Positions 14,720 to 25,760 of a stretch of DNA of 33,145 nucleotides are shown here, in pieces. Position numbers and translations under genes: made by a program. Under the pieces are notes generated by a model. That model saw only the letters and a program-made list of their open reading frames with translations. It was not told the origin of the DNA and did no database searches. The number at the start of each line of letters is the position of its first letter. The first letter of the stretch is position 1. Source of the DNA: Salinisphaera shabanensis E1L3A (GTDB lineage: Bacteria > Pseudomonadota > Gammaproteobacteria > Nevskiales > Salinisphaeraceae); contig NZ_AFNV02000034.1 in the NCBI RefSeq assembly GCF_000215955.2, forward strand, positions 1 to 33,145. Reading direction: 5' to 3'.

Positions 14720-16033
14720 CTAGCCGCGATGCAGGCGACGGTCGATCACGTGCTTGGCCTTGCCCAGCGAGCGCTCGAGCGTACCCACAGCCGATAGCGT
14801 GATCTTGGTGCTGATGCCGATATACGACTTGATGTGCTGCTGCAGATTGCTCAGCGTTTCGTCTTCGGTGCTGTGATCGTCGAAGTCGTGACCGCGCTCG
14901 ACGGTGAGCGCCACGTGATCGAGATTGCCTTCGCGGGTGAGCTCGATGAGATAGTGCGGCGCCAGGCCTTTCTGCTTGCAGATGATCTCCTCGATCTGGG
15001 TCGGGAAGACATTCACCCCGCGGATGATGAGCATGTCGTCCGAGCGGCCGGTGATCTTGTCGATACGCCGCATGGAACGTGCGGTCGGTGCCAGCAAACG
15101 CGTGAGATCGCGGGTGCGATAGCGCACGATCGGCAAGGCCTCCTTGGTGAGCGAGGTGAATACCAGTTCGCCAGGTTCGCCGTCGGGCATCACTTCGCCG
15201 GTCTCGGGGTCGATGATTTCGGGATAGAAATGATCCTCCCAGATTACCGGCCCGTCCTTGGTCTCCACGCATTCGTTGGCCACGCCAGGGCCCATGACTT
15301 CCGATAGACCGTAGATATCCACCGCGTCGATACCGGCGCGGCGTTCGATCTCTTCGCGCATGGCATTGGTCCAGGGCTCGGCGCCGAAGATGCCGATCTC
15401 CAGCGAGGAATCGCGCGGGTCCAGGCCCTGGCGCTCGAATTCCTCGATGATGTTGAGCATGTAGGATGGCGTGACCATGATGATGCGCGGCTTGAAATCG
15501 CGGATCAGCTGCACCTGTTTTTCGGTCTGGCCACCCGACATCGGGATCACGGTACAGCCGAGTTTTTCGGCGCCGTAGTGGGCGCCGAGACCGCCGGTAA
15601 ACAGGCCGTAGCCGTAGGCCACATGCACGATATCGCCCGGCTTGCCACCGGCCGCACGGATAGACCGCGCGACCAGATTGGCCCAGGTTTCGATATCGTT
15701 TGCCGTATAGCCCACCACCGTCGGTTTGCCGGTGGTCCCGCTGGAGGCATGGATACGCGACACCTGATCGCGCGGCACCGCGAACATATCGAACGGATAG
15801 GCGTCGCGCAGATCCTGTTTGGTGGTGAACGGAAACTTCGCCAAGTCGGCCAGCGTTTCCAGATCGCTCGGGTGTACGCCGGCCGCGTCGAACTTGGCCT
15901 TGTAGCGCGGCACGTTGTCGTAGGCATGCTGCAGCGACCATTTCAGCCGTTCGAGCTGCAGGGCCTGCAGTTCGTCACGGCTGGCGGTCTCGATCGGCTC
16001 GAGAAACGACTCGGGTTCCATCAGTGCGGCCAT
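14720..16033 (-). CDS. paaK: Phenylacetate-CoA ligase
   Basis: This 437-aa enzyme activates phenylacetate to phenylacetyl-CoA with ATP, the entry step of the paa pathway. The P-loop SSGTTGKPTVVGYT, GAEPWTNAMR, YGLSEVMGPG and the C-terminal RSDDMLIIRGVNVFPTQIEE are all present. The start at 16033 is preferred because GGAGGG sits 7 bases before this ATG; upstream starts at 16048 and 16039 overlap that site. The resulting length equals that of E. coli PaaK. It is the last gene of the paa operon, 122 bases after paaI, with a strong hairpin in the gap. Confidence 0.96.
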   Translation of the reverse strand: MAALMEPESFLEPIETASRDELQALQLERLKWSLQHAYDNVPRYKAKFDAAGVHPSDLETLADLAKFPFTTKQDLRDAYPFDMFAVPRDQVSRIHASSGTTGKPTVVGYTANDIETWANLVARSIRAAGGKPGDIVHVAYGYGLFTGGLGAHYGAEKLGCTVIPMSGGQTEKQVQLIRDFKPRIIMVTPSYMLNIIEEFERQGLDPRDSSLEIGIFGAEPWTNAMREEIERRAGIDAVDIYGLSEVMGPGVANECVETKDGPVIWEDHFYPEIIDPETGEVMPDGEPGELVFTSLTKEALPIVRYRTRDLTRLLAPTARSMRRIDKITGRSDDMLIIRGVNVFPTQIEEIICKQKGLAPHYLIELTREGNLDHVALTVERGHDFDDHSTEDETLSNLQQHIKSYIGISTKITLSAVGTLERSLGKAKHVIDRRLHRG

Positions 16034-16100
16034 GTTCATTCCCTCCATCTCGTTGCTGTTTTCTACAAGCCGCGCGTGCGCGCTTGTCTTGTTTTAGTAA

Positions 16101-16155: not shown

Positions 16156-16632
16156 CTAGGACGCCATGACCTCGAGCACTTCGCCGCGGACCTGATGAGC
16201 CCGCCCACGAAACAGCACGACGGTTTCGTCGTGCTGGTTGCGAACGGTGACGTCGTAAACCCCGGTTCGGCCCGAGCGCGAACGCTGCTCGGCTTCGGCG
16301 ACGAGTACGTCGCCGGCAAACGCCGGGCGCAGGTAGTCGACATTGCAAGCCGCGCCCACCGTGTTCTGATTGCCGCTGTTACAGGCAAAGGCAAACGCAC
16401 TGTCGGCGAGCGAAAAGATCAGCCCGCCGTGGCAGGTCTTGTGGCCGTTGACCATGTCGTCGCGTACCGGCATGGACACACGGGCATAGCCCGGCGCCAT
16501 GGCGTCGATATGCATGCCGAGCATGCGCGAGGCCTCGTCGCGGGCGAACATCGCCTCGCCGACGCGCTCGGCCAGCGCCTGGGCGTCCGTATCCACGGGC
16601 GCGACCGATGCGCCGTTCTGGCTGGATTGCAT
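16156..16632 (-). CDS. paaI: Hydroxyphenylacetyl-CoA thioesterase
   Basis: This 158-aa hotdog-fold thioesterase has the family core NGHKTCHGGLIFSLADSAFA, with the HGG and ADSAF elements of the PaaI active site. It hydrolyses dead-end aryl-CoA esters and so relieves CoA sequestration in the paa pathway. The start at 16632 follows AAGGAGA with good spacing; the open frame upstream overlaps paaG and is not similar to PaaI. It lies 88 bases after paaG. Confidence 0.94.
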   Translation of the reverse strand: MQSSQNGASVAPVDTDAQALAERVGEAMFARDEASRMLGMHIDAMAPGYARVSMPVRDDMVNGHKTCHGGLIFSLADSAFAFACNSGNQNTVGAACNVDYLRPAFAGDVLVAEAEQRSRSGRTGVYDVTVRNQHDETVVLFRGRAHQVRGEVLEVMAS

Positions 16633-16720
16633 TGCCTTGTCTCCTTTCCGAAAGAGCCTGTTCGGGGCGGCGCGCTGCTTTTTTTGATGTTCGTTGCAGC
16701 GTCGCCGGTGTTTTCGTTCT

Positions 16721-17512
16721 TCAGCGGCCTTTGAATTCGGGCGTGCGTTTTTCGCTGAACGCAGCCACGCCTTCGGCATAGTCGGCACTGCGGCCGAGCT
16801 CGCCCATGGCATCGCGTTCGGCATCCAGCTGCGCATCGAGATTGTTGTTGGCGCCGGCGTACATCAGTTCTTTCGTTCGGGCCAGGCCCCGGGTCGGCGC
16901 TTTCGACAGATGCTCGACGAGCTTGTCGATTTCGGCCTCGAAGGCGTCGTCGTCGACACAGCGCCAGATCAGGCCCCAGTCGGCCGCGGTCGGCGCATCG
17001 ATGGGTTCGCCGAGCATGGCAATGCCCATGGCTCGGGCCATGCCGATCCGGCGGGCCAGAAAATAGGTGCCGCCGGTATCCGGAATCAGACCGAGCTTGC
17101 AGAAGCTCTCGATGAACCTGGCCGAACGCCGGGCCACGACCAGATCGCAGGCCAACGCGAGATTCGCACCCGCGCCCGCGGCCACGCCGTTGACGCCACA
17201 GACCACCGGCAGCGGCAACGCACGCAGGCGCCGCACCAGCGGTGCGTAATAGGTTTCGACCGAATAGGCCAGATCGGGCGCTTCGCCGGCGGTCGATACC
17301 GCGCGATCGCCGAGATCCTGGCCGGCACAAAAGCCCTTGCCAGCACCGGTGAGCAGCAGCACGCGCACCGAGTCGTCGGCTTCGACCGTGTCGAGCGCTT
17401 CGGCGAGCGCTTCGTGCATGGCCACATTGAAGCTGTTGAGCTTGTTCGGGCGGTTGAGCGTGATTCGGGCAATGCCGGAATCGATGCTCAGGATGATGGA
17501 ATCGTCTGCCAT
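16721..17512 (-). CDS. paaG: 1,2-epoxyphenylacetyl-CoA isomerase
   Basis: This 263-aa crotonase-fold protein contains GKGFCAGQDLGDR, NGVAAGAGANLALACD (oxyanion hole) and LIPDTGGTYFLAR with the catalytic Asp. FCAGQDL is typical of PaaG and not of the hydratase PaaF. It converts ring-1,2-epoxyphenylacetyl-CoA to the oxepin. The ribosome-binding site GGAG overlaps the paaZ stop codon (TAAGGAG) and the gap is 10 bases, so translation is likely coupled. No paaF partner lies in the window. Confidence 0.94.
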   Translation of the reverse strand: MADDSIILSIDSGIARITLNRPNKLNSFNVAMHEALAEALDTVEADDSVRVLLLTGAGKGFCAGQDLGDRAVSTAGEAPDLAYSVETYYAPLVRRLRALPLPVVCGVNGVAAGAGANLALACDLVVARRSARFIESFCKLGLIPDTGGTYFLARRIGMARAMGIAMLGEPIDAPTAADWGLIWRCVDDDAFEAEIDKLVEHLSKAPTRGLARTKELMYAGANNNLDAQLDAERDAMGELGRSADYAEGVAAFSEKRTPEFKGR

Positions 17513-17522
17513 GAGAATCTCC

Positions 17523-19583
17523 TTAAGCGGCGGCCGTTTCTTCGGCCTCCGGCGTCCAGTCGGTGGTGGCGACCATGGTCAGCACGTCGTACTGGGCCAC
17601 GACTTCGTCGTTCTGATTGGTCACGGTGGCGTCCCAGCGCACTTCGCCGTATTCGGTGTTCTCGCGCTTGGTCTTGTGTTTGCAGGTGAGTGCCACCCTG
17701 AGCGCATCCCCCGGATAGGCCGGCGTCATGAAACGCAGGTTGTCGACACCGTAGTTGGCCAGCACCGGGCCCGGATTGGGCTCGACGAACAGGCCGGCTG
17801 CCAGCGACACGATGTAGTAACCGTGGGCCACGCGCCCGTCGAAGAACGGGTTCGCCTTGGCGGCGTCCTCGTCCATATGGGCATAGAAGGTATCGCCGGT
17901 GAAATTGGCGAAATGCTCGATATCCTCGAGGGTGACCTCGCGGGCATCGGTGAGAATCGCGTCGCCGATTTCGAGTTCGTCGAAATGCTTCTGGAACGGG
18001 TGGCGATCGGTTTGTACGCGCTTGCCGCCCGGCAGCCAGTGGTCGATCACATCCGCCAGCATGTCGGGCGAGCCCTGCAGGGCACTGCGCTGCATGTAAT
18101 GAAACACGGCACGCATGCCGCCCAGCTCTTCGCCGCCGCCGGCACGCCCCGGCCCGCCGTGTACCAGCATGGGCATGGGCGAGCCGTGGCCGGTGGATTC
18201 CTTGGCACAGTCGCGATCGAGCACGAGCAGACGGCCATGGAACGGCGCACAGCCCAGCGTCATCGCCTGGGCGAAGCCGGCGTCGTAGGTCACGATCGAG
18301 CCGACCAGGCTGCCGCCCCCCAGACGGGCAAGCGCCACGGCCTCTTCGGTGGTTTCGTAAGGCATGACGGTCGCGACCGGGCCAAAGGCCTCGATCGTAT
18401 GAATCGCCGTATGCTCGAACGGCGCATCGGCCGAGAGCACGACCGGCGCGACGAATGCGCCCTTGTCGGCATCGGCATCGACCACCTCGCAGCGCGCCGG
18501 ATCGCCGTAGACGATCTTGGCGCCCTCGGCCAGATCGGCAATGCGGGCGCGCACTTCCTCGACCTGATCGCGGCTGGCGAGCGCACCCATGGTCACGCCT
18601 TCGGCCTCCGGGTTGCCGACCACTACCTTGTCGAGCTTTTCCGAGAGTGCATCGATGAACGCCTGCTGGTGATCACGGGCCACGAGCACGCGCCGGATGG
18701 CCGTACATTTCTGGCCGGCCTTGACCGTCATCTCGCGCATGACTTCTTTTACGGCCAGCTTGAATTCGGGCGTGTCCGGACCGGCGTCGGGGCCGAGCGC
18801 GAGGAAGTTGAGCGAATCGGCTTCCATGGAGAAGCGGGTCGCGTTCTCGACGATCGCCGGATGCTGCTTCAATTTGCGACCGGTCGCCGCCGAACCGGTG
18901 AAGGTGACCACATCCTGGCAGGTCACATGGTCGAGCAGATCGCCTACGCCGCCGCTGATCAGCTGCAGAGCGCCTTCTTCGATCAGCCCGGAATCGACGA
19001 TGGCGCGCACCACGTCTTCAGTGACATAGGCCGTCTGCGTTGCCGGTTTGACGATGGCCGGCAGGCCGGCCAGGTAGTTGGCCGCGAATTTTTCCAGCAT
19101 GCCCCACACGGGGAAGTTGAATGCATTGATATGCACGGCCACGCCTTCCAGCGAGGTATGGATATGCTGGCCGATGAAGCTGCCGTGGCGCGACATGGGT
19201 TCGGGATTGCCGTCGAGCGCGAACGTGGCGTTGGGCAGCTCGCGCCGGCCCTTGCTGGCATAGGTGAACAGCGTGCCGATACCGCCGTCGATATCCACCC
19301 AGGAATCGGTACGCGTGGCGCCGGTCGCAGTGGAGAGCTTGTAGAAGCGCTCCTTGTCGGCCATCAGCGTCTGCGCGAGCGCCTTGAGCTGCAGCGCGCG
19401 CTGATGAAACGTCAATGCGCGCAGCTTCGGGCCGACCTGGGTCCGGGCATAGTCGAGCATGGCGGCGAAATCGATGCCGTCGCTGGATACGCGGGCAACG
19501 GGTTCGCCGGTCACCGCGTTCAATACCGTCTTGCCGCCTTCGCCGGTGACCCACTGGCCCTGCACATAGCTGCTGGATTGCAT
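17523..19583 (-). CDS. paaZ: Oxepin-CoA hydrolase / 3-oxo-5,6-dehydrosuberyl-CoA semialdehyde dehydrogenase
   Basis: This 686-aa bifunctional ring-cleavage enzyme is close to the 681 aa of E. coli PaaZ. The N-terminal ALDH domain has FTGS (228-231), Glu254 in MEADSLN and nucleophile Cys293 in GQKCTAIRR. The C-terminal MaoC-type hotdog hydratase has FTGDTFYAHMDED (Asp564 corresponds to the E. coli catalytic Asp) and GRVAHGYYIVS. Both active sites look intact, so it should both hydrolyse the oxepin and oxidise the reactive aldehyde. A 135-base gap separates it from the upstream PaaA-like gene, more than elsewhere in the operon, and contains two CCTGAATAT copies. Confidence 0.96.
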   Translation of the reverse strand: MQSSSYVQGQWVTGEGGKTVLNAVTGEPVARVSSDGIDFAAMLDYARTQVGPKLRALTFHQRALQLKALAQTLMADKERFYKLSTATGATRTDSWVDIDGGIGTLFTYASKGRRELPNATFALDGNPEPMSRHGSFIGQHIHTSLEGVAVHINAFNFPVWGMLEKFAANYLAGLPAIVKPATQTAYVTEDVVRAIVDSGLIEEGALQLISGGVGDLLDHVTCQDVVTFTGSAATGRKLKQHPAIVENATRFSMEADSLNFLALGPDAGPDTPEFKLAVKEVMREMTVKAGQKCTAIRRVLVARDHQQAFIDALSEKLDKVVVGNPEAEGVTMGALASRDQVEEVRARIADLAEGAKIVYGDPARCEVVDADADKGAFVAPVVLSADAPFEHTAIHTIEAFGPVATVMPYETTEEAVALARLGGGSLVGSIVTYDAGFAQAMTLGCAPFHGRLLVLDRDCAKESTGHGSPMPMLVHGGPGRAGGGEELGGMRAVFHYMQRSALQGSPDMLADVIDHWLPGGKRVQTDRHPFQKHFDELEIGDAILTDAREVTLEDIEHFANFTGDTFYAHMDEDAAKANPFFDGRVAHGYYIVSLAAGLFVEPNPGPVLANYGVDNLRFMTPAYPGDALRVALTCKHKTKRENTEYGEVRWDATVTNQNDEVVAQYDVLTMVATTDWTPEAEETAAA

Positions 19584-19718: not shown

Positions 19719-20489
19719 TCAGGCCAGCTGCAGACGCGACAAATGGGTGCGCGCCCGGTTCTGCCAGGCGGCGCGCAGTTCTTCGTTGGTTGTATGTCGC
19801 AGCCCCATCCGGGCCAGCCGTGTAAAGCGCTCCGACTGGGCGCTACCAAAGGTTTCTGCGACCCGTGGATACCAGTACGCCACGCAGGCTTTGGCCTCCT
19901 CTCGGCCCGCTTTGTTGGCAACGATGCGATCAAGACCCTCGAAGCCCAGCTCCATGTGGCGTTGCTCGCGCGGCAGCACCGCGCGTACGACATCGGCGAA
20001 CGGCGCGTATGAGCACTCGCGCAGTTCTTCGAGCTGCACCACGGTCGCCAGGCCCATGAGCACGTTCATGACAACGGCATCGGTCCAGTTTTCCAGCGGA
20101 TAGTGAAAGACCGACAGCCGCATGTCCCCGCCCTGGCGCGCCGGGTCGATATCGGCATCGCGGCTGGCGCGCGCCGACCAGTTGTGGGCTTTGTTGTAGA
20201 GCGCCTTGTCGGTACCGAAATCGCTCATGAGGTCGAGCACGCGCTCGGCGTGGTCGGCTTTTTCCAGCACGATCCGGCTGGCTGCGATGCGTTCCTTGAT
20301 ACCGGGGGCCCAGTTGATCGAATCGGCAAACCCGGCCGAGCCGGCCAGCTCGCTGTCCACGAAGGAGGACATCAGCCGGAGCAGCTCGCCGCGATAGCGT
20401 GGCGGCGGGTTGTCCGGCGAGGTCAGCTTGCCGCCGCGGGCCAGATAATCCTCGATCGGCATGGTCTGATCGAACGGTTCACTCGTCAT
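19719..20489 (-). CDS. Degenerate PaaA paralogue (PaaA/PaaC family, ferritin-like)
   Basis: This 256-aa protein can be aligned by eye with the PaaA encoded in this same window. SEL and the following NW match SEIV and NW, Glu47 to His80 spans 33 residues as in PaaA, and FHYPLENWTD matches [10 protein letters not shown]. The second ExxH is kept (Glu175, His178). The first ExxH glutamate is replaced by Lys77, the aspartate ligand by Gly146, and the nearby conserved lysine by Ile73. An intact di-iron site is therefore unlikely. Its ATG overlaps the end of paaE by 11 bases, which implies translational coupling with the epoxidase genes. It is probably a structural or accessory subunit of the epoxidase or a separate assembly; I know no characterised equivalent. 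Confidence 0.75.
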   Translation of the reverse strand: MTSEPFDQTMPIEDYLARGGKLTSPDNPPPRYRGELLRLMSSFVDSELAGSAGFADSINWAPGIKERIAASRIVLEKADHAERVLDLMSDFGTDKALYNKAHNWSARASRDADIDPARQGGDMRLSVFHYPLENWTDAVVMNVLMGLATVVQLEELRECSYAPFADVVRAVLPREQRHMELGFEGLDRIVANKAGREEAKACVAYWYPRVAETFGSAQSERFTRLARMGLRHTTNEELRAAWQNRARTHLSRLQLA

Positions 20490-21554
20490 AGCTGAGTACC
20501 ACCGTGTCGGTGACCGGCACGCTCTGGCAGGTCAGCACATAGCCGGCCTTGACTTCATAGTCCTCGAGCGCCTGGTTGTTCAGCATCTCGACTTCGCCTT
20601 CGAGCACCTTGGCCCGGCAGGTCGAACATACGCCGGCCTTGCAGGATACGGGGCGTCCATGGCGCTGGCGAGCGCACCGTCGAGCACCGCGGTGCCGTCA
20701 TTGGGCATTTCGATCGTACGCGTGGTGCCATCGAGCGTGACCGAGACCGTGCAGGTCGCCCCGGCCCGTGCGTCCTGGCGAGAAATGGCCGGTTTCTTGG
20801 CCCGGCCCGGCTGCGAGGAGGCGAACAGCTCGAACTTGATTCGATCGTCGCTCAGACCGTGCTGCTTGAGCGAATCGGCGATCGTGAGCATCATCGGTTC
20901 GGGGCCACAGATGAACGCGGTATCCACCGAGTTGGCGTCGATCCAGTACTTGAAGAGCTGCTCCATCTTCTCGGCGTCGATCCGGCCCGAGAACAGATCG
21001 ATGTCCTGGCCTTCGCTGGTGAGCACGTGGATGACCGAAAAGCGCCCGAGATGCAGGTTCTTGAGGTCTTCGAGCTCCTCGCGAAACATGATCGACGTCA
21101 TCTGGCGGTTGGCGTAGAGCAGCGTGAACTGGGATTTGGGCTCACGCGCGAGCACGGTCTTGATGATCGACAACAGCGGTGTGATGCCCGAGCCGCCAGC
21201 GAACCCGAGATAGTGTTTTTCGGCGGTCGGTTCAAGCGGCGTATGGAACTTGCCCATCGGCGGCATCGCTTCGATGACGTCGCCGCGGCTGAGCTGTTCG
21301 TTGGCCCAGGTCGAGAACGCGCCGCCATCGACACGCTTGATGCCGACTTTCAGCACGCCCTCGTCGGTTCCGGCACAGATGGAATAGGAGCGGCGCAGTT
21401 CTTCGCCGTCGAAATCACGACGGAAGGTCAGATACTGGCCCTGGGTGAATTCGAAGGCCTCGGCGTTGTCCGCCGGCAGATTGAGCGTGACAACGACGGC
21501 ATCGCGCGTATCGCGGCGCACGTCGACAACTTCGAGAGGATGAAAGCGTGGCAT
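20479..21554 (-). CDS. paaE: Phenylacetyl-CoA epoxidase reductase subunit, interrupted by one -1 frameshift
   Basis: PaaE passes electrons from NADPH to the PaaA di-iron centre. The N-terminal FAD domain has ELRRSYSIC, and the NAD domain has GFAGGSGITPLLSIIK and CGPEPMM. A C-terminal plant-type 2Fe-2S ferredoxin domain follows. As given, the frame goes wrong after ASAMDAPY and ends at 20580. Adding one base near 20645-20648 restores YSCKAGVCSTCRAKVLEGE and a final TCQS, the four cluster cysteines, and gives 358 aa ending at 20479. E. coli PaaE has 356 aa. Without the correction the cluster domain is lost. Sequence error is the likelier cause. Confidence 0.9.
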
Positions 21555-21581: not shown

Positions 21582-22118
21582 TCAGAGGCACTTGAAATAG
21601 TCGAAGGGCTCCAGACAGTCCTTGCAGCGATACGACGCCTTGCAGGGGGTGGAACCAAACTGGCTGATCTTTTCGGTGTTCGTGGATTCGCAGCGCGGAC
21701 AGGCGATCGCCGGGCCTGTCACACCGGCCAGGCGCGACGCGCGACTGGCCAGCTGACCGCTCGCGGCGGTGCCATCGACCGGCGGGGCAATACCGAATGC
21801 GCGCAGCTTGTCGCGTGCCGAATCGGTAATCCAGTCGGTCGTCCAGGGCGGCGACAGCCGTCGTTCGACGCGCAATGCGTCGACGCCTTTCGAGCGCAGC
21901 TGTTCGACAATCATCTGGTTGATGACCAGGGTCGCCGGGCAGCCGGAGTACGTGGGTGTCACCGTGACCACCAGGGTGTCGTCCCGGTAGCCCACTTCGC
22001 GGACAATGCCGAGTTCGGTCACGGATACGACCGGGATTTCCGGGTCCGGCACGTCGGCAAGCCATTCCCAGACTTGCTGGGTTGTCGGCTGGGTGTTTAC
22101 GGCCTGTTGCTGTTTCAT
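21582..22118 (-). CDS. paaD: PaaD, Fe-S/MIP18-type maturation factor of the epoxidase
   Basis: This 178-aa protein has an N-terminal MIP18/DUF59 domain (WEWLADVPDPEIPVVSVTELG and PTYSGCPAT) and a C-terminal cysteine-rich zinc-ribbon-like tail (CPRCES, CKASYRCKDC, KCL). PaaD is required for the pathway and is thought to help mature the iron-sulfur or di-iron parts of the complex. It lies 18 bases after the corrected paaC stop and 27 before paaE. Confidence 0.93.
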   Translation of the reverse strand: MKQQQAVNTQPTTQQVWEWLADVPDPEIPVVSVTELGIVREVGYRDDTLVVTVTPTYSGCPATLVINQMIVEQLRSKGVDALRVERRLSPPWTTDWITDSARDKLRAFGIAPPVDGTAASGQLASRASRLAGVTGPAIACPRCESTNTEKISQFGSTPCKASYRCKDCLEPFDYFKCL

Positions 22119-22136
22119 ACGGCACCGCGCCAGCGG

Positions 22137-22987
22137 CTACCAGCTGGCGCCCGGATAGGCGCGCTGCAGAAACTGCATATCGGACAGGATGTAGCCCAGA
22201 TGCTCCGTGTGTTTGCCGGTCTTGCCGCCGGTATGCACGAAGCGTTATCGGGGACGTTCAGGGTCGCTTCGTCGAGCACATCCTCGACCCGCGCCAGCCA
22301 GGCCTCGCGCAACGTATCCGGCGACGGGGCAATACCCGCCTCCGCCATCGTGGCGTCGACGCCGTCGCTGACGAACATGTCGCCCGTGTAGGACCACAAT
22401 ATGTCCAACGCCTGCTGCATCCGATCATGGCTTTCCGGGGTGCCATCACCCAGACGCACCACCAGATCGGTGGAACGCTCAACGTGATACGAGACTTCCT
22501 TGAGCGCCTTGGCAGCGATCTCGGCGACGCGCGGGCTGGTCGATTCGGTCAGCCGCTGCAGCAGTTCGTAGTGGAAGGCGTCGAACAGGAACTGGCGCAT
22601 GGTGGTCACGCCCATATCGCCGTTGGGTACCTCCACGAGCAGCACGTTGCGAAACTTGAGGGCATCCCGCAGGAAGGCCAGCTGATCGGCCGACCGGCCC
22701 TCGTTTTCGACCTCGCCGGCCAGCCCCAACCACAGCTGGGTATGGCCGATGAGGTCGAGTGCGGTATTGGTCAGCGCAATATCCTCTTCCAGGGCCGGCC
22801 CATGGCCGCACCATTCAGAGAGCCGCTGACCCAGGATCAGCGTGGTATCGCCCATGCGGCACAGCCATTCGAAGAACGCCGGCCGGGTTTCGACGTTGGT
22901 GACGTGCGCATCGTGGGTCTGCTCGGCCGCGGCGATGTCAGCCAGCTTTGTGACGTCATCGGTGTTCATGTCGGACAGAGACGGCAT
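22137..22987 (-). CDS. paaC: Phenylacetyl-CoA epoxidase structural subunit, interrupted by one -1 frameshift
   Basis: PaaC is the non-catalytic ferritin-like partner of PaaA. Typical segments are LGQRLSEWCGHGP, DIALTNTALDLIGH and SYHVERSTDLVVRLGDGT. The given frame turns to unrelated sequence after NVPDNA and would end at 22115, inside paaD. Adding one base in the GAAG at about 22239-22242 restores a C-terminus reading VHTGGKTGKHTEHLGYIL and ending in ASW, with a stop at 22137 and 283 aa in total. The ATG overlaps the paaB stop (TAATG). The indel could be a real mutation, but the C-terminal reading frame beyond it is fully conserved. Confidence 0.9.
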
Positions 22988-23271
22988 TACATATTCCCCA
23001 CTTCGTCGGGAATGTTGTAGAACGTGGGATGCCGGTAGATCTTGTCTTCGGCGGGGTCGAACATCGGCCCCTTGTCGGACGGCGTGGACGCGGTGATCTC
23101 GGTCGAACGCGCGACCCAGATCGAAACCCCTTCCTTGCGCCGGGTATAGACATCGCGGGCGTTGTTGATTGCCATCTCGGCGTCGGGCGCATGCAGGCTA
23201 CCGACATGCCGGTGGTTGAGCCCGTGCTGCCCACGGATGAAGATTTCCCAGAGCGGCCATTCGTTCGCCAT
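22987..23271 (-). CDS. paaB: Phenylacetyl-CoA epoxidase subunit PaaB
   Basis: This 94-aa protein of typical PaaB length has the family opening WPLWEIFIRGQHGLNHRHVG and ALHAPDAE-like SLHAPDAEMAINNARDVYTRR. PaaB bridges PaaAC heterodimers in the epoxidase. It follows paaA by 38 bases, and its stop overlaps the paaC start by one base. Confidence 0.96.
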   Translation of the reverse strand: MANEWPLWEIFIRGQHGLNHRHVGSLHAPDAEMAINNARDVYTRRKEGVSIWVARSTEITASTPSDKGPMFDPAEDKIYRHPTFYNIPDEVGNM

Positions 23272-23309: not shown

Positions 23310-24299
23310 TTATGCGGCGACCCGGCGCTTGGCCGCTTTCTCGGCGTAGGCCGCAAGGCCGTCGCGGAACCATTCACCGCCTTCCCAGGCCTTGATCCGG
23401 GCGCCCAGGCGCTCGCGATTGCAGGGGCCGTTGCCCTTGAGTACGGCCTTGAACTCTTCCCAATCCGGCTGGCTGAAGTCGTAGTTCCCGGTCTCCTCGT
23501 TCCAGACGAGGTCGTCATCGGGAATGGTCAGCCCGAGGTAATGCGCCTGCGGGACGGTCTCGTTGACGAAGCGCTGGCGCAGTTCGTCGTTGGTATTCAT
23601 CTTGATCTTCCAGGCCATGGACTGGTCGGAATGCACGCTGTCCTTGTCCGACGGGCCGAACATCATCAGCGCCGGATACCAGAACCGGTTCAACGCATCC
23701 TGGGCCATCTCTTTCTGCGCGGGCGTGCCGGAGACCATCGACATCATGATCGAGTAGCCCTGGCGCTGATGAAAACTCTCTTCCTTGCAGATGCGCACCA
23801 TGGCCCGCGCATACGGCCCGAAGGAGGTCCGCTGCAGGGGCACCTGGTTCATGATCGCCGCGCCGTCCACCAACCAGCCCACGGCACCCATGTCGGCCCA
23901 GGTCAGGGTCGGATAGTTGAAGATCGATGAATACTTCATTTCGCCCGAGTGCAGCTTGTTCATCAGCTCGTCGCGGCTGATGCCCAGCGTCTCGGCGGCG
24001 CAATACAGATACAGGCCATGGCCGGCCTCGTCCTGCACCTTCGCCAGCAGGATCGCCTTGCGCTCGAGCGTCGGCGCGCGCGTGACCCAGTTGCCTTCGG
24101 GGAGCTGGCCCACGATCTCGGAATGGGCATGCTGACCGATCTGGCGGATCAGCGTCTTGCGATACGCAGCCGGCATCCAGTCCTTGGGCTCGATCTTGAT
24201 GTTGCCGTCGATGCGCGCTTGGAACGCGGCCTCTTCCGGCGACAGCTCGTCGGCGTCACGAACCCCTTGGGTGCCGGTACTTACATTCTGTGCATACAT
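23310..24299 (-). CDS. paaA: Phenylacetyl-CoA epoxidase catalytic subunit
   Basis: This 329-aa di-iron oxygenase subunit epoxidises the ring of phenylacetyl-CoA. With the start at 24299 the ligands are Glu61, Glu91 and His94 (QDEAGHG), Asp145 (WLVDGAA), and Glu174 and His177 (EESFHQRQ). The spacings equal those of E. coli PaaA. I prefer the ATG at 24299 (MYAQNVSTG) with GGGAG 8 bases upstream, over a GTG three codons earlier. It is the first gene of the paa catabolic operon and is preceded by a dyad that is a likely PaaX operator. Confidence 0.96.
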
Positions 24300-24384
24300 G
24301 ATTCGCACTCCCGCCTGGAAAAGGCTGTCTTGGCGTTGTAATGCCGGCTCGTGCCGACACCGGCGCCGCGGATGCAGCGCTCGT

Positions 24385-24662: not shown

Positions 24663-25583
24663 TCAGAGACCGCCGAAACGCTCGTAGAAATAGGCGGCCG
24701 GCTCGGGCAGCGGCCCGTCGGCGGTTTCCAGCACTTCGGCCAGATAGCTTTCGGCCTGTCGGAAGGTGGCGCGATAGAGATTGCGACACAAAAGCCGCGC
24801 CGCCGTGCCGTGCCAGTCGCCCGGTAATACATCGTCGGGCAGCTGGGGATCGCGCAGCAGCAGACGACGAATTTCGTGGATCAGCAACGTTCTGATCAGA
24901 AACGCCGCCTGTGGGTCGAGCCCACCGTTGCTGTCGATAGCGCGCCAGACCGGTCGGAACCGATCCAGAAATTCGGCGTATTGCACGCCGAGCGCTTCGA
25001 GATTCCAGCACTCACGCACAAGCCGGTTGAGCGGTGCCGAGGTAGGCAGGCCTTCGTTGCGTGCACGCATGAGCACCACACGACGCTGAACATCCATATC
25101 CTGCAGCACCGACGTCAACGCCGATCGCGGCGGTAGCGGGTGCGCCAGCATATCGCTGGAAAATGCGCCGAAGCCGAGCGTCGACAACTCCTTGCGCAGC
25201 GTGTCGCGCTTGCGCTGCGGCACCTGCCCCATGAGCACGAGCGTCCACTCGCCGTCCCAGGACACCCGCGGCTCGCTATAGACCCGTTCATAGGCCCGTT
25301 CGAAGCTGCGCCAGCCGCTACGCGTGAGGCTGTAGTAGCTGCGCCGGCCAATCTGCTCGGAACTCAGCCAGCCTTCCTTGGACAGCCGATAGACCGAAGT
25401 ACGAACGAGGCGCTCGTTGAGGCCCAGCGGTTCCAGTAATTTGATCAGGCTGCCCAACCAGACGGTGCCGCCCCGCGGCGCAATCGCATCGCCATAGACC
25501 GAAATGATCAGCGATGTCGCGCGCAGAGAGCGGCGGGCGCTGAATTCTTCGATCAATGCATCGATAGGCCGGGATCGTGCCAA
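24663..25583 (-). CDS. paaX: PaaX-family repressor of phenylacetate catabolism
   Basis: This 306-aa protein is close to the 316 aa of E. coli PaaX. It has an N-terminal winged helix (SARRSLRATSLIISVYGD, then LNERLVRTSVYRLSKEGWL and GRRSYYSLT) and the PaaX C-terminal domain (WDGEWTLVLMGQVPQRKRD). In E. coli the repressor is released by phenylacetyl-CoA. The start is a TTG at 25583 with AGGGAG upstream; the open frame runs 47 codons further but without a ribosome-binding site or similarity. It lies upstream of paaA on the same strand with 363 bases between, and downstream of the liv operon terminator, so it has its own promoter. Confidence 0.93.
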   Translation of the reverse strand: MARSRPIDALIEEFSARRSLRATSLIISVYGDAIAPRGGTVWLGSLIKLLEPLGLNERLVRTSVYRLSKEGWLSSEQIGRRSYYSLTRSGWRSFERAYERVYSEPRVSWDGEWTLVLMGQVPQRKRDTLRKELSTLGFGAFSSDMLAHPLPPRSALTSVLQDMDVQRRVVLMRARNEGLPTSAPLNRLVRECWNLEALGVQYAEFLDRFRPVWRAIDSNGGLDPQAAFLIRTLLIHEIRRLLLRDPQLPDDVLPGDWHGTAARLLCRNLYRATFRQAESYLAEVLETADGPLPEPAAYFYERFGGL

Positions 25584-25644
25584 TGTGTTCTCCCTATGAG
25601 CGCTGTCGGACCGCGACAATACGGTCGGACACACAAGCTGGCAT

Positions 25645-25675
25645 AAAAATGCCCGCGGCACAGAGCGCGCGGGCA
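25645..25675 (-). terminator. Rho-independent terminator of the liv operon
   Basis: On the minus strand TGCCCGCG (25675-25668) and CGCGGGCA (25657-25650) form a perfect 8-base stem with a 10-base loop, followed by TTTTT (plus-strand A at 25645-25649). It lies about 85 bases after the substrate-binding protein stop and before paaX. Confidence 0.85.
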
Positions 25676-25760
25676 CCGTATAACCTCGTGATTCTAGAGC
25701 CTGGCGGGCGAGCTTGCGAGCCATACAGGCAAAGCTGCACGGCCCGCAGCCAAACCTGGC

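Follow-up and report, generated by a model that had tools for sequence, protein, structure and literature searches.

The phenylacetate epoxidase is described as PaaABCE together with PaaD. The di-iron ligands of Escherichia coli PaaA are Glu42, Glu72, His75, Asp126, Glu155, and His158, and a lysine bridge joins Lys68 to Glu49, Glu72, and Asp126 (PMC4498308, partial text). Here, we compared this system with an operon found in a stretch of 33,145 nucleotides of Salinisphaera shabanensis E1L3A (contig NZ_AFNV02000034.1), referred to below as the window. The genome contains three genes of the PaaA_PaaC family (PF05138), namely paaA, paaC, and a further one encoding a protein of 256 amino acids with an altered metal site, here called X. 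A preliminary description of the operon had proposed that X may be an undescribed PF05138 protein beyond PaaA and PaaC. This was borne out, since our search of the full-text literature (titles and abstract starts, with few subscription papers covered) returned no description of X, nor of S, a second protein presented below.

The operon lies on the minus strand and starts with a PaaX-like regulator (24663-25724), followed by paaA (23310-24308; TIGR02156, 517.9 bits for a cut-off of 280), which encodes the complete set of di-iron ligands, paaB (22987-23271; TIGR02157, 144.8 bits, cut-off 85.45), paaC (22115-22987; TIGR02158, 240.1 bits, cut-off 133.35), paaD (21582-22118; TIGR02159, 192.8 bits, cut-off 108.15), paaE (20479-21554), and X (19719-20489). 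The gene behind X is paaZ (17523-19583), whose product is 65% identical to Paracoccus PaaZ, and it is followed by paaG (16721-17512), paaI (16156-16836), and paaK (14720-16048), the last three identified by tblastn with annotated Paracoccus proteins. Upstream of the operon, the ORFs between 25761 and 30403 look like a liv-type transporter by inspection. The frame of paaC is broken near the C-terminus, and an extra PF05138 piece at 22140-22256 belongs to the paaC region. The paaE frame is also broken near its C-terminus: the ORF at 20580-21554 scores 351.7 bits with TIGR02160, below the cut-off of 420.8, and, as judged by eye, the homologous frame goes on to a stop at 20479, which is 11 nucleotides into X. 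The overlap of paaE and X given in the preliminary description thus stands as tight linkage through this homologous frame, and not for the paaE ORF itself, which ends at 20580. These two frame breaks are due either to sequencing error or to decay. In a sister genome (G006), the frames of paaC and paaE are unbroken.

The reading frame of X is intact, and its assignment draws on the ORF, profile, alignment, and structural model. The PF05138 profile matched X with 82.5 bits (E 3.8e-23), well over the gathering cut-off of 28.5, and this was the sole Pfam match at E 0.01, a threshold at which no family of ribonucleotide reductase small subunits was matched. All 79 members of the X alignment matched the same profile at E 0.001. 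Scores with the models of the characterized proteins were below cut-off, at 61 bits for PaaA (TIGR02156, cut-off 280), 32.3 bits for PaaC (TIGR02158, cut-off 133.35), and 13.3 bits for BoxB (TIGR03225, cut-off 499.1), and the annotated records of X relatives that we examined bear a family-level name only. In Paracoccus denitrificans PD1222, the X gene is PDEN_RS23920. The AlphaFold2 model of X alone (mean pLDDT 89.5) has the helical fold of PaaA and PaaC. Foldseek ranked first a chain of 3PW8 with the length of PaaA (TM 0.81 by query, E 3.0e-10), and after the PaaA chains came 4MUD, PaaC, and BoxB. The 25 matches with E up to 0.001 were all chains of PaaAC or PaaABC entries, PaaC, 4MUD, or BoxB, and the Foldseek score of PaaC itself (1otk_A, TM 0.69 by query) was lower than that of PaaA. 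The identity between X and PaaA is 21-26%.

The most conserved parts of X are helices B (residues 30-60) and C (64-89), with mean entropies of 0.41 and 0.58 bits, respectively, against 0.93 bits overall. Helices B and C build the bundle of the PaaA-PaaC heterodimer (PMC9493321, partial text). Since these helices also hold Glu47, Lys77, and His80 of X, their conservation alone is no proof of an interface. X also has a segment of its own at residues 98-125 (20115-20198, minus strand), partly absent from PaaA in the alignment. Within it, Trp104, Arg107, Arg110, Asp122, and Arg124 are invariant in the two sets of sequences defined below (84/84 and 30/30), and Arg118 is kept in 84/84 and 26/30. AlphaFold2 was less sure of this part of the model (pLDDT of 83, 64, and 67 for the blocks covering residues 101-130).

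We mapped the residues of X on PaaA with a joint alignment anchored on PaaA motifs, using the E. coli PaaA numbering (PMC4498308, partial text). Conservation was counted in 84 sequences (X of the window, those of three plasmid loci, and the 80 top-ranking ones among 273 relatives), a set chosen by similarity to X and by patterns within X and therefore favoring conserved members, and in a wider, overlapping set of 30 rows (20 operon-linked X, 7 from genomes lacking PaaA, and 3 from Bartonella). All codons given here are on the minus strand. Two metal ligands are replaced: the counterpart of Glu72 is Lys77 (20259-20261; Lys in 84/84 and 30/30) and that of Asp126 is Gly146 (20052-20054; 84/84 and 28/30). 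The lysine of the bridge, Lys68, has become Ile73 (20271-20273; 84/84, and Lys in 0/30), and Glu49, the second acid of the bridge, corresponds to Phe54 (20328-20330; 84/84 and 29/30), a change not listed in the preliminary description. Compared with PaaA, two of the six ligands and all four positions of the bridge are thus altered. The retained positions are Glu47 (20349-20351, PaaA Glu42; Glu in 77/84 and 26/30), His80 (20250-20252, PaaA His75; 84/84 and 26/30), and the two ends of the Glu175-Gln-Arg-His178 motif (19956-19967, PaaA Glu155 and His158; both invariant in 84/84 and 30/30). The residues assigned to X in the preliminary description hold in this alignment, and the broken di-iron site that it reported is fixed across the family.

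The lysine is fixed more tightly than two of the retained ligands, since Lys77 is present in all 30 rows of the wider set and Glu47 and His80 in 26 each. In two operon-linked X proteins (G504 and G622), Glu47 and His80 are both gone and the lysine is still present, and two Bartonella copies carry Ser instead of His80, also with the lysine. Among the PaaA rows, all six ligands were present in 20/20, and Lys68 with Glu49 in 19/20. A search for replacement ligands by conservation gave no clear substitute set in X. Elsewhere in the protein, Phe128 (PaaA Phe108) is Phe in 81/84 and 28/30, and His129 is a well-kept new histidine (82/84). Chance residue changes or sequencing error are excluded as the source of the altered site by the presence of the same residues in 84/84, and so is a decay of the kind seen in PaaC, since the retained residues differ. 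As judged from the alignments, the change of the site is a non-random, family-wide trait, which, together with the loss of the lysine bridge, makes X a poor candidate for PaaA chemistry.

PaaA (TIGR02156; 3PW8, 3PVR, and 4IIT) shares with X the fold, the PF05138 family, the operon, the F-x-Y-P...W motif of the substrate side, and the ligand positions 42, 75, 155, and 158. X differs from it by the replacement of Glu72 by Lys and of Asp126 by Gly, the missing lysine bridge, the score below the equivalog cut-off, a shorter C-terminus, the added segment at 98-125, and its placement in a separate clade. PaaC (TIGR02158; 1OTK) belongs to the same fold family and operon and resembles X in being non-catalytic, in the reading that we propose for the latter. 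Most PaaC rows are without the ligands at 42, 72, 75, and 155 (Glu at 155 is missing in 15/17), whereas most or all X rows keep 42, 75, 155, and 158, and X forms a clade apart. In a single-sequence search of the PDB, X matched best to SSO1313 of Sulfolobus solfataricus (4MUD; E 2.8e-11), a short PF05138-like protein that, unlike X, keeps Glu and Asp at the positions of Glu72 and Asp126, as judged by eye from the alignment.

The phylogeny gave the same picture. In a tree of 84 rows, from which six long-branch rows of the initial 90 had been dropped (two Agrobacterium sequences, one Alteromonas sequence, the Thermus PaaA, one Bartonella X, and one PaaC), X, its kin from genomes lacking PaaA, and the Bartonella sequences formed one clade (99/99). 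The other clades were PaaA (100/98, without the Thermus PaaA, which fell outside the PaaA clade in a quick tree), PaaC (100/100), and S and the subfamily Y (100/100 each), which are presented below. X therefore grouped with none of the characterized families included. It was placed with S and Y with support of 94/72 and with S alone with 54/11, and a sisterhood of X and PaaA was neither rejected nor shown (p-AU 0.446), in an analysis where the program warned of long branches meeting. A recent duplication of the window's paaA is excluded by the tree and the equivalog scores. X is, on this phylogenetic evidence, an old separate subfamily that is neither PaaA nor PaaC, so that the term PaaA paralogue used in the preliminary description applies in a deep sense and not to a copy of the operon's own PaaA.

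A scan with one genome per species identified 273 stretches encoding X relatives; the 80 best, together with L040-L042, gave 83 loci. Since these loci were picked by X, the counts show where X lives and not how frequent it is in paa operons. X lies directly behind paaE in 83/83 (gap of at most 171 nucleotides), with the overlap of 11 nucleotides in 35 of them under the start-choice rule used; paaZ is next in 78/83, and a PaaX-like gene is found within the examined stretch in 67/83. As named in their records, 77 of the best 80 of 273 are from Alphaproteobacteria, the rest being a Spiribacter, a Burkholderiaceae MAG, and an Enemella genome, possibly through contamination. In this Enemella locus (L102, Actinomycetota), X accompanies paaABCDE and lies near alphaproteobacterial sequences in the tree, a case of transfer or contamination. 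No X was found in viral contigs. The mean pairwise identity of X (69.7%, 82 loci) is close to those of PaaC (70.3%, 79 loci) and PaaE (76.4%, 82 loci). Over 59 loci, the distances of X correlated most with those of PaaE (0.92) and PaaZ (0.90), with partial correlations of 0.34 and 0.31, respectively, values that may only mirror gene adjacency.

In the window's genus, X is present in 2 of 14 genomes, and in the second of them (G006) the contig stops at residue 107 of the protein. In a quick tree, alphaproteobacterial sequences are the closest to the window's PaaA, suggesting operon transfer. The X profile matched 70 of 398 genomes of the phylum, and X proper (E 5.3e-99 or better) was found in ten of them, the window's included, each with a second, weaker match. 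All nine others, upon examination, have paaABCDE before X. Among 387 alphaproteobacterial genomes, nine carry X (E 1.1e-87 or better, the next best match being 4.4e-23), and in four of these (G725, G504, G894, and G1028) it stands behind paaABCDE. Conversely, of 27 regions without X, selected because they gave weak matches of the PaaA kind, 25 encode paaABCDE, which indicates that X is optional and dispensable for PaaABCE in general.

Seven genomes have X and no detectable PaaA or PaaC: five alphaproteobacteria (G828, G836, G844, G871, and G999) and two gammaproteobacteria that share a genus (G123 and G246). Their X shows 48-53% identity, and their best PF05138 match reaches at most 97.4 bits, against 280-347 bits for the PaaA and PaaC identified in the other genomes searched. 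They are drafts that are 87-99% complete, so that a gene could be missed in any single one. In all seven, the gene right after X is paaF- or paaG-like; paaI and paaK come next in six, and the contig ends in the seventh. Some of these genomes also have paaH, paaJ, paaN, and paaY (the names paaF and paaH and those of transporters in these loci are labels assigned in this analysis). In 7/7, X is paired with a divergently oriented, short flavodoxin gene. The one that was scanned matched PF00258; it was nearest to the flavodoxin and MioC models, below their cut-offs, and far below the cut-off of NrdI. Neither the window nor the Paracoccus locus has a flavodoxin of this kind. The occurrence of X in genomes without PaaA and of paaABCDE without X shows that X is neither confined to PaaABCE nor required by it. 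This goes against a general role as an extra subunit or regulator of the PaaABCE complex, as put forward in the preliminary description, and leaves standing that X is an extra protein linked to paaE.

Each of these seven genomes encodes one further PF05138 protein, S, of 267-276 amino acids (with starts as chosen here) and 72-96% identical to the copy in G123. S keeps the counterpart of PaaA Lys68 and five of the six ligands, with Thr at the position of Asp126 in 7/7. A profile search in 661 genomes found full-length S in 5 of 387 alphaproteobacteria and 2 of 274 gammaproteobacteria, which are exactly the seven X genomes lacking PaaA (nominal P = 1.8e-9 in the alphaproteobacterial set, whose genomes are not independent). 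One genome (G874) has a broken S and no match to X, and, in a test within one order, two of three genomes of one genus carried both X and S and the third carried neither. The distance between S and X ranges from about 4.5 to 16.5 kb in G999, G844, G871, and G828 and is about 49 kb in G123, and the two genes are on different contigs in G246 and G836. The gene directly behind S is a small orphan in 7/7 (L189:6556-6936 and L248:6437-6862, both on the minus strand, and five more; 126 to 170 codons in six ORFs), and neither Pfam nor NCBIfam matched the two members scanned. In 5/7, S has a divergently oriented PaaX gene beside it, and the one scanned passes TIGR02277. The PaaX of the window shows 52-59% identity to these five proteins and 31-33% to the Paracoccus and Sagittula ones, placing S in a regulatory setting of the phenylacetate type. 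LivK of the window is 54-69% identical to that of the S loci in four genomes and 60% (over a cut stretch) to that of Paracoccus. Since the former is no closer than the latter, only PaaX was taken as a link between the window and the S loci. That S epoxidizes phenylacetyl-CoA is our guess from the missing step.

X was linked to phenylacetate genes in the loci examined, Bartonella excepted. Five Bartonella plasmid records matched X, and we examined two of them, Bartonella sp. HY038, with two copies, and HY329, whose best copies show 47% and 43% identity, respectively. No paaABC was present in the examined plasmid stretches of either. In HY038 (L213:6989-9004), two X genes in a row adjoin a PaaX-family gene, the only paa gene in the examined 12.8 kb, and the examined stretch of HY329 has no PaaX gene. 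Other PF05138 relatives were also recorded. The subfamily Y (about 240 amino acids; 13 loci, L235-L244, L246, L247, and L187, with L245 excluded) has all six di-iron ligands in 13/13, lacks the lysine bridge, and has a PaaE-like reductase nearby in 11/13; it appears to be an undescribed oxygenase that has a dedicated reductase. On an Alteromonas plasmid (L216:5926-8281), a PF05138 protein of 250 amino acids adjoins a radical SAM protein and a MaoC dehydratase, in a setting that is not a paa operon. On an Agrobacterium plasmid (L217:5917-8236), two divergent PF05138 proteins flank a small protein and a protein of iron-sulfur assembly; a CoA transferase and an ABC transporter are encoded nearby, and the whole is possibly another oxygenase cluster.

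Our preferred reading, which we hold tentatively and which draws on comparative sequence evidence, is that X may be a non-catalytic, probably metal-free accessory component of the PaaA/PaaC fold acting in the oxygenation of phenylacetyl-CoA. That some genomes combine X with PaaABCE and others combine it with S would fit a non-catalytic oxygenation component serving either. By analogy with a known case, the charge of Lys77 would fill the emptied metal site and bond the remaining acids, and the filled site would hold the four-helix core of X without iron. Helices B and C would then be the docking face of X for the catalytic subunit (PaaA in this operon, S in genomes without PaaABC), and, once docked, X might tune substrate entry, electron delivery from PaaE or the flavodoxin, or the hand-over of the product to PaaG and PaaZ. 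Against the metal-free part of this reading, the four residues retained in most rows could still hold one metal. Against the part concerning an oxygenase component, it does not explain the X of Bartonella HY038 and HY329, with no paaABC in the stretch examined.

The case that provides the analogy is that of the class Ie ribonucleotide reductase subunit R2. R2e has a fold of the ferritin type, NrdI is flavodoxin-like, and the charge of a lysine in R2e fills the emptied metal site through bonds to the remaining acids. In this metal-free class (QSK and VPK variants), metal-binding glutamates are replaced, one of them by lysine, and NrdI is needed (PMC11846895, partial text). X resembles R2e in having Lys for a metal-binding Glu and, in the seven genomes lacking PaaA, in its flavodoxin neighbor. 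It differs in that there is no sequence kinship, two acids and not three are replaced, and the flavodoxin lies close to the MioC models and scores far under the NrdI cut-off, with none adjoining X in the window. The parallel is one of analogy, not of kinship. An extension of our reading, possible but doubtful, is that X is a metal-free component shared by two phenylacetyl-CoA oxygenases, PaaABCE and an undescribed kind made of S, the orphan protein, X, and the flavodoxin, which would stand in for PaaABCDE in part of the genomes. Taken furthest, this extension would make X, like class Ie R2, a lysine-filled ferritin-fold protein taking part in metal-free redox chemistry with a flavodoxin.

Other functions were considered. 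X could be no subunit at all and bind a CoA thioester (phenylacetyl-CoA, the toxic epoxide, or the oxepin), carrying or shielding it on its way from the oxygenase to PaaG or PaaZ. The conservation of Phe128 is in line with this, as the corresponding Phe108 of PaaA orients the phenyl ring (PMC4498308, partial text), and so are the invariant Trp and Arg of the segment 98-125, where the low model confidence would be that of a loop ordered by its ligand, and the position of X, which precedes paaZ in most loci and paaF or paaG in the seven genomes that also have S. Yet X lacks the C-terminal part of PaaA that bears the door residue Leu286 (PMC4498308, partial text), and such a carrier leaves the flavodoxin neighbor unexplained, so that we regard it as unlikely. 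The same flavodoxin, adjoining X in genomes with no detectable PaaABC, would suit an independent enzyme in which His80, Glu175, and His178, often with Glu47, hold a single metal in the manner of a 2-His-1-carboxylate site and act on a pathway intermediate. The invariance of these three residues in the 84 sequences agrees with this possibility, and the ligands and reductases of the neighboring subfamily Y suggest that X may descend from redox enzymes. In the wider set, however, His80 and Glu47 are each replaced in 4/30 and two operon-linked X lack both, and a strictly fixed lysine in the metal site disfavors the binding of a cation, making an enzyme of this kind rather improbable.

A sensor or regulator of the pathway, working with a PaaX-type repressor, would account for the two X genes beside a PaaX-family gene in HY038 and for the PaaX-like gene in most of the 83 loci. 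It is harder to reconcile with the HY329 stretch, where PaaX is lacking, with the classical operons, which place X between enzyme genes, and with the domain content of X, in which PF05138 is the only Pfam match and no DNA-binding domain was seen; we consider such a role improbable. Finally, the loss of two metal ligands and the frame breaks of paaC and paaE in the window might suggest that X is a decaying, functionless copy of PaaA. This is highly improbable, and already contradicted by conservation: X is intact, its identity across loci is close to those of PaaC and PaaE, its replacements are fixed throughout a deep clade, and G006 has unbroken paaC and paaE.

These results show that a further protein of the epoxidase fold, with an altered metal site, recurs in paa operons, with 273 relatives among the species genomes. 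The shared PaaA_PaaC architecture has been used as a survey marker, and a weak congruence of PaaA and PaaC was reported for some alphaproteobacterial groups (PMC13186573, partial text). Surveys marking by this architecture could miscount X. The seven genomes with X and S and no detectable PaaABC open to testing the assumption that the aerobic use of phenylacetate by this route always needs PaaABCE.
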